Source: an uncultured bacterium (lineage in GTDB: Bacteria; Cyanobacteriota; Vampirovibrionia; Gastranaerophilales; Gastranaerophilaceae). From it: a DNA stretch of 44,602 nucleotides. Shown here in pieces: positions 24,655-28,757 of the stretch. Numbering within the stretch: the stretch's first letter is position 1; every line of letters starts with the position of its first letter. Both the position numbers and the translations under genes were made by a program. Under the pieces are notes generated by a model. It did not search any database and was not told the origin of the DNA. It saw only the letters and a list, made by a program, of their open reading frames with translations. The stretch lies in NCBI GenBank assembly GCA_902766975.1, contig CACXFH010000004.1, forward strand, positions 1 to 44,602, given 5' to 3'.

Positions 24655-26283
24655 TTATTTGTCTTTTTCTTCAAAATCAGTTCCGCCAACAACTCTTAAT
24701 CTCAGATGTCGATTTTCGCCTTCTCCTACAGAAGTTGAATCAAGATTGTGCTGCTCGGCAAGTTCATGTTGAAGTTTTCTTATTTGTTGATTTTGCGGTT
24801 TTAATTCAATATCTTTCACCACTCCCGTAAGAATTTTTTCAATTGCAGCTTTTGCCTCATCAAGCGCGCTTTCTGTTACATCATAGAAAGATTGTTTTTC
24901 ATTCATTTCTGCAATATCAAGTGCTTGCTTTATTATTTTTTGAATTTGTGCCATTGAGTTTGTCTTAACATAAAATATTTGCAATCTGTCTTTTTCTGCG
25001 GTTGAAAGAACTTTTGCGCCTCCTTTGACAAAGTTTTTATGTGCAATTACAATATCAGCATCGTCTATATTTCTTGTAATTTCAGCGTTCAAATCCAATC
25101 GTTCAATGACTTTTTCAGCTATGCTTCTTGATACGGCATAAAGATATATTTTTTTGTAGTTTTTAACTTCTTCAACGTACTTTTGTCTTGAGAATGAAAA
25201 TTTCAAACTTTCAGGATGCTCAATTGTTTTATCAAGAATGTTAATTTTATCTAATACATTTGGAGTTTTTGATAACGATATCGGGGCAGGAGCGGTAAAT
25301 TCATAAGTTTTATCGACTTTTCTAATCTCCGGCTTAATCGGCCATCCTCTTAAAATATAATCTACCGCTTCTGCTGTATCTTTATATACGGCTAATGTGT
25401 TTCTGTCTAAAATTTCTATCACGATATCAAATGTCGGCTGTTTTTCACGTTCAAGAACAGTTTTTTGAGAAGAACGCCGCTTAGCTTCATCATCTCCCAA
25501 TGTAACTGACTGAATGCCCCCAACCAAATCAGATAGCGTTGGGTTTTTGATAAGATTTTCCAATGTGTTACCATGAGCAGTTGCAATAAGCATTACTCCT
25601 CGTTCTGCAATTGTTCGGGCTGCTTGTGCTTCTTCTTCAGTTCCGATTTCATCAACTATAATAACTTCAGGGGTGTGATTTTCTACCGCTTCAATCATTA
25701 TGTCTTTTTGAAATTCAGGCTGCCGTACCTGCATTCTTCTCGCATGGCCTACAGCAGGATGCGGAACATCCCCATCACCTGCTATTTCATTTGAAGTATC
25801 AACTATGACAACTCGTTTTGCGAGTTCATCCGCAACAAGTCTCGAAATCTCGCGCAGCTTTGTGGTTTTGCCTACTCCCGGACGCCCCAAAAATAATATA
25901 CTCTTATTTTGCAGGCATATATCTTTTATGCAGGAAATTGTGCCTGTGACGACTCGACCTATTCGGCAGGTCAGACCGACAACTTTACCTTGCCTGTTGC
26001 GTATGGCGCTTATTCTGTGCAATGTTCCCGCAATGCCTGAACGATTATCCGAGGTAAATTCTTGTACCCGTGATGTTATATATTTTATATCATCTTCATT
26101 TACAACATCAGTATCCAAATAAATTATTGTGCCGTCAGAATTTCTAACTTCGGGAACACGACCTAAATCTACTACGATTTCAATCGCATCATCCAACATT
26201 TGGGCAGAAACACACTTGTTAATTTTCTCCGGTAAAATCGCTAATAACTTCTCAATATCATTTTGTAATTGCAGGTTGCTCAT
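24655..26283 (-). CDS. Ycf45-type AAA ATPase with C-terminal R3H domain
   Basis: The 542-residue protein has a SpoIIIAA/Ycf45-type ATPase core. Walker A is FLGRPGVGKTT and Walker B VIIVDEIGTEEEAQAA, followed by GVMLIATAHGNTLENLI. The C-terminus has an R3H single-strand nucleic-acid-binding domain (IRKLQHELAEQHNLDSTSVGEGENRHLRL, with the R-x3-H motif). This domain order is characteristic of cyanobacteria and red-algal plastids. The function is unsettled; ATP-dependent RNA or DNA binding is likely. The ORF extends 96 bases further upstream, but the ATG at 26283 is chosen because AAAGGTGG lies six bases before it and an extended -10 lies inside the extension. Confidence 0.88.
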   Translation of the reverse strand: MSNLQLQNDIEKLLAILPEKINKCVSAQMLDDAIEIVVDLGRVPEVRNSDGTIIYLDTDVVNEDDIKYITSRVQEFTSDNRSGIAGTLHRISAIRNRQGKVVGLTCRIGRVVTGTISCIKDICLQNKSILFLGRPGVGKTTKLREISRLVADELAKRVVIVDTSNEIAGDGDVPHPAVGHARRMQVRQPEFQKDIMIEAVENHTPEVIIVDEIGTEEEAQAARTIAERGVMLIATAHGNTLENLIKNPTLSDLVGGIQSVTLGDDEAKRRSSQKTVLEREKQPTFDIVIEILDRNTLAVYKDTAEAVDYILRGWPIKPEIRKVDKTYEFTAPAPISLSKTPNVLDKINILDKTIEHPESLKFSFSRQKYVEEVKNYKKIYLYAVSRSIAEKVIERLDLNAEITRNIDDADIVIAHKNFVKGGAKVLSTAEKDRLQIFYVKTNSMAQIQKIIKQALDIAEMNEKQSFYDVTESALDEAKAAIEKILTGVVKDIELKPQNQQIRKLQHELAEQHNLDSTSVGEGENRHLRLRVVGGTDFEEKDK

Positions 26284-26305
26284 ATTTGCCACCTTTCTAT
26301 AAAAG

Positions 26306-26314
26306 ATTATACCA
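26306..26314 (-). promoter_or_regulatory. Extended -10 promoter of the Ycf45/R3H gene
   Basis: The minus strand reads TGGTATAAT, with the -10 hexamer ending 22 bases before the start codon at 26283. Confidence 0.55.
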
Positions 26315-26609
26315 ATTTTTTGAAAGGGGTATGTTTTTTTAATTTTATCGATATATCTTCCATATATATTATAACACATGTTACGACTTTTTTTTATAAT
26401 TTCTTAAATTTTCAAATTTTATTTTTAACAAAACTTTACATTAGTAATTGGGTTGTAAACGTGTTATATCAACACTCTTCATTTTAAAAAATAAAAAAAT
26501 TATATTTTATTGCTAATTATTATAAATAAATATATAGAGCTAGGTTTAAGATTAATAAATTGAAATATTTTTTGTAAGATATTAAGTTCTGTAAAGTTAG
26601 AGGGTTTTC

Positions 26610-26643: not shown

Positions 26644-28446
26644 ATGAGAAATAATCTTTTTACAATATTACTTTTAGTTTTACTATTAGCCGCATTTATT
26701 CTGTGTATATCAGGGTATAAAAATAAATTTGAAGTTTTAGATGTCCTGTCATCAGATATTATTTTGGTTGATTTAAACCATAACGGTGTCGCAGATAACG
26801 ACGAAACAATATGTGTAAGCGGGGTTGAAGGTTTTGAATTTGAACCTGATATGAGTATTTTGTCGAAATATCAAAAATTGTTTAAATTAAATAAAAATGA
26901 TGCTGTCGGATTGTGGTATCTCGGGCGAGAATTTGGCAGAAAAAATCTCCTTAATAAAAAGATTTCACTTAAACAGGTAAAAATCAAAAATCATAAGTGT
27001 AAAGAAGCTAAGATTTTAATTGATGGTGCTGATTACGGAGATTTGTTATTTAATTCGGGATTTGGTTTGCGCAATTTCATAGCCGAAAATAGTGGAAAAT
27101 TCGGACAAAATCTTGATAATGCGAGAAAATTAAATCTTGTAGTCTTAAATCATCATTCAAATAAGTACCATACGTTGGATTGCGAATACGGTAATATGGC
27201 ACACGACAAGATTATTATCCCGTTTAAACAGCTTCCAAAAGGTATGAGCCCATGCCATTTTTGTCATAGTATAAAGGATAAAAAACATAAATCAAATGCT
27301 AATCTGATTTCAAATGTTACAGCTGTGTCGCCGGCGTTAAAGGTACATTCCGGGAATATTGCCATATACAGATTTGATTATACTAAGCATTTAAAGCCCA
27401 ATTCTGATTGTAATACAGATGTTTGTCGCCTTGTTGTCGATAATATTAACAGGGCAAATGATTCAGTTGATATTGCAATATACGGTTATGATGATATCCC
27501 CGCAATCTCTACCGCATTAAAAAACGCAAAGCAGCGTGGTGTTCGTATCAGATACGTTTATGACGAATCTTCTGATAATAAAACTTTTTATAAAAATAAC
27601 GATATAATAAAAAATCTTTCTGACGTATTTATGGGTGATAAACATTCAAAAGAAGCCAATAAAATTATGCATAATAAGTTTATTATTTTCGATGATAAGT
27701 CCGTAATAACAGGATCTATGAATTTTTCTCCGAGTGGTTTGAGCGGATATGATATTAATGACGTTGTTGTTTTAAATTCTGAGCCAATTGCACAATTATA
27801 CAAAGAAGAATTTGAACAAATGCTTAGCGGTAAATTCCATAATGCAAAATTTAAACACAATATTCATAATAAATTCATTATGGGTAATTCCGAGATTGAG
27901 GTTTATTTTTCTCCGCAGGATAAGGCTGCAAACAGAATAATTGAGCTAATTCACAATTCAAGGCACTATATTTATGTTCCGACCTTTTTGATTACTCACA
28001 AAGGGGTAAGTGATGCGCTTATTCAAGCCCAAAAGCGTGGAATTGACGTAAAAATAATAATAGATGCAAATAGTGTAAATACAAGAAATACAAAACATAA
28101 AATTTTGCGTGATAGCGGAATTGCTCTAAAAGCAGAGAATTACGCAGGAAAACTTCATTCAAAATCAATGATTATTGACGATGAATATATTATTGTTGGT
28201 TCTATGAATTTTTCTAATAGCGGTGAAAATAAAAATGATGAAAATATGCTTGTCATAAAAAATAATTTATTTGCAAAGAATTATAAAGTGTTTTTCTTGT
28301 ACTTGTGGCGAATAATTCCGGATAAATATCTGAAATCTGCTCCCAGAGCCGAAAGTTTTAATTCAATCGGCTCCTGTAGCGATGGTGTTGATAATAATTT
28401 TGACGGTAAGATTGATATTTCTGATGACGGTTGCAAAAAGAAATAA
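26644..28446 (+). CDS. Exported multi-domain phospholipase D-like protein
   Basis: The 600-residue protein has an N-terminal membrane segment (residues 5-23; signal peptide or anchor). An EF-hand-like loop D43-x-N45-x-N47-G...E54 follows. A short SNase-like stretch (KILIDGADYGDLLFNSGFGL, about 123-142) precedes an Ada-like metal site (KYHTLDC180 ... PC204-HFC207). Two PLD HKD motifs follow, H343-N-K-F-I-I-F-D and H505-S-K-S-M-I-I-D, each with GSMNFS. The end CSDGVDNNFDGKIDISDDGC resembles Asp-rich Ca2+-binding repeats. PLD proteins cut phosphodiesters in nucleic acid or lipid. The SNase/Ada/PLD set favours an extracytoplasmic nuclease, which is inference. The only usable ATG lacks a ribosome site. 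Confidence 0.85.
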   Translation: MRNNLFTILLLVLLLAAFILCISGYKNKFEVLDVLSSDIILVDLNHNGVADNDETICVSGVEGFEFEPDMSILSKYQKLFKLNKNDAVGLWYLGREFGRKNLLNKKISLKQVKIKNHKCKEAKILIDGADYGDLLFNSGFGLRNFIAENSGKFGQNLDNARKLNLVVLNHHSNKYHTLDCEYGNMAHDKIIIPFKQLPKGMSPCHFCHSIKDKKHKSNANLISNVTAVSPALKVHSGNIAIYRFDYTKHLKPNSDCNTDVCRLVVDNINRANDSVDIAIYGYDDIPAISTALKNAKQRGVRIRYVYDESSDNKTFYKNNDIIKNLSDVFMGDKHSKEANKIMHNKFIIFDDKSVITGSMNFSPSGLSGYDINDVVVLNSEPIAQLYKEEFEQMLSGKFHNAKFKHNIHNKFIMGNSEIEVYFSPQDKAANRIIELIHNSRHYIYVPTFLITHKGVSDALIQAQKRGIDVKIIIDANSVNTRNTKHKILRDSGIALKAENYAGKLHSKSMIIDDEYIIVGSMNFSNSGENKNDENMLVIKNNLFAKNYKVFFLYLWRIIPDKYLKSAPRAESFNSIGSCSDGVDNNFDGKIDISDDGCKKK

Positions 28447-28517: not shown

Positions 28518-28757
28518 ATGAATCAAATAATTAAAGTGGCTTGGGAATTGAATGAAAATTCCGATAACAGATATAAACTTGTATATGAGATTGCAGAGCT
28601 TGCAAAAAAATTGGTTGATGAAAGTCAGGCAAGAAAAGCAAGAGAAAGTTTTGGTTATGAAGATGCTCATGAAGGAGCATACACAAGAGAAAATCCTGTT
28701 GAACACGCATTGATGGTAAAAGCATCAGAAGCAGATGACAACAGATTAGTAGGTTAA
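28518..28757 (+). CDS. rpoZ: RNA polymerase omega subunit-like protein
   Basis: The 79-residue protein resembles omega, the small RNA polymerase subunit that helps fold beta'. DNRYKLVYEIAELAKKLVDE (about 16-35) matches the omega signature N-R-[YF]-x-L-V-x-x-[AI]-A-x-x-A. ENPVEHALMVKASEA near the end matches the following helix that contains the conserved 'V..AL.E'. The central part is more charged than usual. GTGAGGT lies six bases before the ATG, and a strong terminator follows. If it is not omega, it is a small conserved helical protein. Confidence 0.6.
   Translation: MNQIIKVAWELNENSDNRYKLVYEIAELAKKLVDESQARKARESFGYEDAHEGAYTRENPVEHALMVKASEADDNRLVG

Follow-up and report, generated by a model that had tools for sequence, protein, structure and literature searches.

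The protein encoded at positions 26,644 to 28,446 of the window, the whole 44,602-nucleotide stretch of DNA that was analyzed, represents a separate family of the Gastranaerophilales lineage (Cyanobacteriota), with orthologs across it. Its single chain joins a staphylococcal nuclease (SNase)-fold domain whose catalytic residues have been replaced, a putative zinc knuckle, and two phospholipase D (PLD) domains whose catalytic residues are strictly kept. We put at roughly 0.65 the probability that it is an inner-membrane-anchored, periplasm-facing nuclease of the Nuc/NucT type, in which the tandem PLD pair is the active part and the SNase domain has been retired. Profile, structure, and ortholog comparisons bear out the multidomain reading of an initial annotation made from the sequence, which described an exported protein with SNase-like and Ada-like zinc parts, two HKD motifs, and an acidic cysteine-containing tail. 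The features are collected in Table 1.

Table 1. Features of the window protein and of its Arg/Arg paralog
Feature	Position	Strand	Basis
Whole ORF, 600 aa, ATG start: signal anchor, SNase-like, zinc knuckle, PLD, PLD, acidic Cys tail	26644..28446	+	
Residues 5-23, hydrophobic signal anchor, presumably uncleaved	26656..26712	+	Hydropathy, AF2 helix
Residues 24-160, predicted SNase-fold domain, catalytic residues lost	26713..27123	+	PF00565 matches in family, AF2, fold match
Residues 43-54, Ca2+-like loop in predicted beta-hairpin	26770..26805	+	AF2 model, ortholog pattern
Cys57, at SNase catalytic Arg35 position	26812..26814	+	Alignment, invariant
Cys119, at SNase catalytic Arg87 position	26998..27000	+	Alignment, invariant
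Residues 165-210, putative Ada-like zinc knuckle (H176, C180, C204, C207)	27136..27273	+	Conservation, hhalign
Residues 236-405, first PLD domain (C256/C261 invariant near its start)	27349..27858	+	Pfam, fold
HKD motif 1, H343-N-K345-x4-D350, then GSMN	27670..27693	+	Sequence, orthologs
Residues 406-565, second PLD domain	27859..28338	+	Pfam, fold
HKD motif 2, H505-S-K507-x4-D512, then GSMN	28156..28179	+	Sequence, orthologs
Residues 574-598, acidic motif between C578 and C597, single copy	28363..28437	+	NF033662-like match, conservation
Arg/Arg paralog, complete SNase motifs, 89-97% identity between four genera	L162:4271-6268, L233, L234, L235, L236:10270-12267		

Distribution of the family

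The reading frame is not a chance one, since the protein is conserved over its full length, at about 42 to 69% identity, in 80 orthologs (the best 80 loci listed). Matches were found in 32 of the 35 other genomes of the genus, almost always at one locus each. When the N-terminal 219 residues were searched at class level, 184 genomes out of 290 gave a match, representing 34 of the 86 genera; some of the weaker matches are paralogs. The window genome is an incomplete assembly (1.69 Mb in 136 contigs), and its named relatives are Candidatus Gastranaerophilales and Melainabacteria assemblies, many of rumen and gut origin.

The exact combination of domains, unfamiliar when the sequence was initially annotated, is thus not unique to the window genome, the family being present throughout the lineage. 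Among the genomes searched, namely, those of this class and eight from the same phylum picked for strong matches, the full combination was seen in this class alone; in the eight, the match was confined to the PLD part. The same was true of four matches in phage records and of every plasmid match listed, with 24 to 27% of the query covered in the latter. A literature search, whose reach took in few subscription journals, found no paper on the full SNase, zinc, and tandem PLD combination. The family is widespread and, as far as could be found, apparently undescribed; given the range of genomes searched, the novelty of the architecture is provisional.

The tandem PLD domains

Pfam recognized two PLDc_2 domains (7.5e-47; 158.9 bits against a cut-off of 27), each with an HxKx4D motif and a following GSxN, which places the protein in the PLD (HKD) superfamily. 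Both HKD motifs are complete, as initially annotated (H343/K345/D350 and H505/K507/D512), and their residues are near-invariant in 81 orthologs: His343 is Leu in one, and all others are invariant. The exceptional ortholog (L032:6001-7800 / L005, one species) reads MLNKF for MHNKF and has lost the first HKD histidine, with the rest of both motifs intact.

The GSMN sequences lie at residues 357 to 360 and 519 to 522, and GS after both HKDs is invariant in the orthologs. A GS motif follows the HKD in Nuc, NucT, and Zuc, whereas in the PLDs of Streptomyces and humans the first such motif is GG (PMC8004604); in having GS after both HKDs, the window protein shows the pattern of a PLD-type nuclease. 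Of the solved proteins, Nuc is the nearest by sequence (9e-15); MitoPLD/Zucchini and NucT come next. The best NCBIfam models for the PLD part were those of NucT and DrmC, all below cut-off. The NucT equivalogs (NF010490-NF010493) reached at best 88.5 bits against a cut-off of 297, about twice the score of the cardiolipin synthase models (88 versus 41 bits, both below cut-off). On these scores the protein can be placed in the PLD superfamily but in no named equivalog family. Assignment to DISARM DrmC (NF038319, 82.5 bits against 133) or to DpdK (NF041068, 57 against 100) was rejected, as was identity as a cardiolipin synthase (TIGR04265, 41.3 against 290) or other lipid synthase, for which the matches are weak and below cut-off; lipid synthesis survives only within a rival reading considered below.

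The model of the whole protein has a pLDDT of 90.1 and a pTM of 0.63, the latter making the relative placement of the domains uncertain. In fold it comes nearest to a Serratia PLD (Z 34.6), with PLD3 and PLD4 at Z 32 to 34; phosphatidylserine synthases (Z 27) and other phospholipases D rank below PLD3 and PLD4. Because the closest fold is that of the Serratia PLD, the fold leaves the choice between lipid and nucleic acid unsettled, whereas the sequence relationships and the GS-GS pattern favor a nucleic acid substrate. We propose that the two HKD triads meet between the two lobes to form the catalytic center, where one HKD histidine would form a phospho-histidine intermediate and the other would act as acid/base, and that the PLD pair would hydrolyze DNA or RNA phosphodiesters, as do Nuc, NucT, and PLD3/PLD4.

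An SNase-fold domain with a replaced active site

Pfam gave no match for the N-terminal part of the window protein. The SNase profile PF00565, at E up to 1, matched this part of 17 of 77 family members (best 2.2e-5), the window protein not among them. An AlphaFold2 model of residues 24 to 236, built from 77 sequences, has a mean pLDDT of 90.4, and Foldseek and VIA-align matched it to staphylococcal nuclease and Tudor-SN; the best match gave a Z score of 11.6 (3.5 Å over 115 residues, 15% identity). In this model, residues 24 to 160 have the staphylococcal nuclease fold. The SNase-like stretch had initially been suggested to start at residue 100; the relationship holds, and the extent needs correction, with the domain beginning near residue 24.

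In staphylococcal nuclease, Arg35 and Arg87 are catalytic, and Glu43 and the Asp ligands are also active-site residues. The two arginine positions are occupied by Cys57 and Cys119, which are invariant in all 81 aligned orthologs. Glu is found at the Glu43 position in only 5 of these 81, the window protein included, and the Asp40 and Asp21 positions hold mostly other residues. The full set of residues that defines an active SNase is absent: cysteine replaces both arginines in 81/81, and the metal and base residues are not conserved. Catalysis by the SNase domain has almost certainly been lost.

A wider alignment of 131 rows contained 94 with Cys/Cys, 23 with Arg/Arg, and a remainder with gaps or other residues; a lone cysteine of the pair occurred in none, and a third set of relatives has neither Cys/Cys nor Arg/Arg. 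Trees were built from the PLD half and from the N-terminal module, and in both a single branch sets the Cys/Cys group apart (support 100/100 and 99/97, respectively). The Cys57/Cys119 pair arose once, so that the lack of mixed states reflects one event and later conservation. The two cysteines may form a disulfide, which the conservation pattern fits without proving. If this account is correct, the family offers a clear example from nature of a catalytic domain put out of use through replacement of both its key arginines, the neighboring active site being strictly kept.

Residues Asp43 to Glu54 had initially been described as an EF-hand-like loop. The strict EF-hand pattern occurs in 0.05% of shuffles of the window protein, and the canonical 12-residue ligand pattern is present in 70 of the 81 orthologs. 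In the AlphaFold2 model of the whole protein, however, the loop sits between beta-strands 39-43 and 55-58 rather than between two helices; the ligand pattern thus stands, in a beta-hairpin loop of SNase type rather than an EF-hand. The same Ca2+-like loop was found in ordinary single-domain SNases of the class, and it was therefore probably inherited with the SNase domain.

Putative zinc knuckle and acidic tail

The putative zinc ligand set, H176-x3-C180-x23-C204-x2-C207, is invariant at all four positions in the 81 orthologs. When the region of residues 165 to 210 was compared by hhalign with Ada_Zn proteins collected in a family search, the probability was 87 and the score 29.1; 20 fully shuffled controls reached at most 14.4, and 20 further controls, in which the ligand columns were left unshuffled, did not exceed 20.4. 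His also occupies the first ligand position in two of the Ada-like proteins. The four residues are likely zinc ligands. The initial description of an Ada-like C180/C204/C207 site was right in the resemblance and incomplete in the ligands, having missed His176. The Ada_Zn_binding family itself (PF02805), which is defined by four cysteines and a score above cut-off, gave no Pfam match in the window protein or any listed member. Together with the former SNase domain, the knuckle would probably serve as a nucleic-acid-binding, spacing, or structural module near the membrane.

Near the C terminus, the acidic double-disulfide repeat model NF033662 matched one unit at 19.9 bits, short of its cut-off of 41, and at E up to 0.01 it matched 36 of 55 orthologs. 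What had been taken for an Asp/Cys repeat is an acidic cysteine motif in a single copy, outside that family by score.

Probable membrane anchoring

The protein has a short basic start and then a strongly hydrophobic stretch, which begins at residue 5 (mean Kyte-Doolittle [KD] value, 3.07) and is modeled as a helix over residues 2 to 25, in agreement with the membrane segment first annotated. Topology was judged by simple hydropathy and a check for a cleavage pattern, not by a signal-peptide predictor. An x-x-Ala pattern near the end of the hydrophobic stretch was present in 24 of 80 orthologs, as against 13 of 14 paralogs of the Arg/Arg type; the window protein has one weak match, LAA. Most orthologs read as signal anchored and the Arg/Arg paralogs as released, with cleavable-type signal peptides. 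The uncleaved-looking signal of most orthologs points to an inner-membrane anchor, with the protein probably facing the periplasm. A lipoprotein was considered and rejected, as Cys21 lies in no recognizable lipobox and is not one of the conserved cysteines.

The anchor-like signal and the mostly single-copy, lineage-wide inheritance argue against the surface nuclease for nutrient DNA or competition that was first suggested; a gene inherited in this way is more readily explained by a housekeeping function than by competition. The most likely use of the protein would be to degrade nucleic acid that enters the periplasm, either in salvage or in the course of DNA uptake. Co-occurrence with competence genes was also tried, and it does not discriminate, because ComEC is found in 285 of the 290 genomes of the class. 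If the proposal is right, it identifies a resident nuclease of a large and mostly uncultured group of gut bacteria and opens to test the protein's role in the Gastranaerophilales, whether in DNA salvage, in uptake, or in keeping out foreign DNA.

Gene neighborhood

The ortholog is immediately preceded by a YdjC/ChbG-like gene in the same orientation at 66 of the 79 loci (among L031-L110); in the 58 loci measured, its stop and the ortholog start mostly overlap by 1, 4, or 14 bases. A family 2 glycosyltransferase gene lies beyond it in 55 ortholog loci. This coupling is the main evidence for an envelope lipid enzyme, in which the PLD pair would take phospholipids or lipid-linked glycans as its periplasmic-face substrates and cooperate with the YdjC-like deacetylase and the glycosyltransferase. 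The phospholipase D at the head of the fold matches, the phosphatidylserine synthases further down, and the weak cardiolipin synthase scores are consistent with such a role. We regard it as unlikely, as the sequence is nearer to nucleases and carries their GS-GS pattern, an SNase-derived domain and zinc knuckle are fused to the PLD pair, relatives retain an intact SNase site, and the window lineage has lost the YdjC pairing while retaining both genes apart. In the window genome, the YdjC gene is on another contig (L171:1489-2334) with the same kind of glycosyltransferase gene; in the window and its nearest relatives, the family gene instead adjoins a SpoIIIAA/R3H ATPase gene.

That divergent upstream gene (24655-26379, minus strand) has SpoIIIAA-like ATPase, PTPase-model, and R3H matches, and its product presumably resembles the cyanobacterial Ycf45. 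A small ORF of 79 aa (28518-28757, plus strand) lies just 3' of the gene and is conserved next to the ortholog in the nearest relatives too (L031-L033); Pfam found nothing in it at E values of 0.001 or below.

The periplasmic nuclease is further supported in that HKD residues are kept while SNase residues are not, that the fused domain comes from a nuclease family, and that relatives keep intact SNase motifs beside the same PLD pair. Against it we count the Serratia PLD as closest fold, the NucT-type matches below cut-off, and the tight coupling to a YdjC-like deacetylase without an evident nucleic-acid role.

Paralogs with an intact SNase site

In sister genera and a further genome of the genus, Arg/Arg paralogs start with VIDGDTVYVDFNDNGIAEQDEKVRINGIDTFE (or nearly so) and go on with NRHLMSLYYD; these two stretches are classical SNase motifs, and a PLD pair stands beside them. 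The paralogs match the NCBIfam model EcnA at 1.5e-12, below its cut-off; our literature search found no account of EcnA. One paralog of genome G061 is matched by copies in three further genera at 96, 97, and 89% identity. DNA identity around it extends over about 2.5 to 2.9 kb and includes a convergent SspD-like PAPS-reductase gene, and AIPR/AbiU, KAP NTPase, and kinase genes lie near the G061 copy, AbiU/AIPR- and KAP-like genes being noted at L236. The near-identical block suggests recent transfer on a defense-type island. Paralogs within one genome (G061, G108, G222; L161, L162, L164, L166) are 81 to 88% identical over the first ~225 residues and ~40% in the PLD half, as if the SNase-zinc module had been converted or exchanged.

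Two further rivals draw on these paralogs. A barrier nuclease, an anchored PLD protein cutting incoming phage or plasmid DNA in the periplasm for defense rather than for salvage or uptake, would agree with the presence of the defense nucleases DrmC and DpdK among the nearest profiles, below the NCBIfam cut-offs, and with the one paralog family found in a region with AbiU/AIPR-, KAP-, and SspD-like genes. We think it distinctly improbable: the defense-like context is limited to paralogs, the window gene is lineage-wide and mostly single copy, with metabolic neighbors and no defense genes recognized beside it, and the DrmC-like scores reflect only the common PLD domain. Highly improbable is a released toxin or surface nuclease, serving competition or the use of nutrient DNA. 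Near-identical paralog copies across genera, with cleavable-type signal peptides and a diverged PLD half behind a near-constant N-terminal module, would suit it, whereas the window protein and most orthologs appear signal anchored and lineage inherited, and a nonsystematic look at the window gene's neighborhood recognized no immunity gene.

A more novel, if rather doubtful, reading is a two-nuclease design, in which SNase and tandem PLD centers, with the zinc knuckle between them, would both act on the same extracytoplasmic nucleic acid. Mobile paralogs would keep both centers and vary the PLD half behind a near-constant SNase module, and in the resident copy the SNase center would have become a disulfide-locked binding or redox-sensing module. 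The Arg/Arg relatives, with their intact SNase site, permit a side-by-side test of the SNase half in such fusions.

Comparison with known systems

The region of residues 165 to 210 resembles the N-terminal zinc domain of Ada (PF02805) in spacing and profile; it differs in having His for the first Cys, and no methyl-transfer role is implied. The fold of residues 24 to 160 is common to the staphylococcal nuclease family (PF00565, including NCBIfam EcnA), from which the window protein and its orthologs differ in that both catalytic arginines are cysteines and the other catalytic positions are lost. SNase domains of Tudor-SN and the extended Tudor type likewise have the fold with catalytic residues lost, and Tudor-SN chains were among our fold matches, although Tudor-SN is eukaryotic, has a Tudor insertion, and lacks PLD domains. 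There the SNase fold without its catalytic residues has been retained for another use (PMC7641849).

Like the window protein, the animal lysosomal 5' exonucleases PLD3 and PLD4, which act on single-stranded DNA, have two HKDs in one chain, and they are made as type II membrane proteins whose catalytic part lies outside the cytosol (PMC10783504). They differ in being eukaryotic and acid adapted, share about 15% identity, and have no SNase or zinc part. The nearest solved relatives, NucT (Helicobacter pylori HP0323) and Nuc (PDB 6ehi, 1byr), are PLD-superfamily nucleases with HKD and GS; they have one HKD per chain and dimerize, and they lack the SNase domain, the zinc knuckle, and the acidic tail. 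Purine salvage and transformation are the processes in which NucT, a periplasmic nuclease associated with the membrane, has been implicated (PMC5714352).
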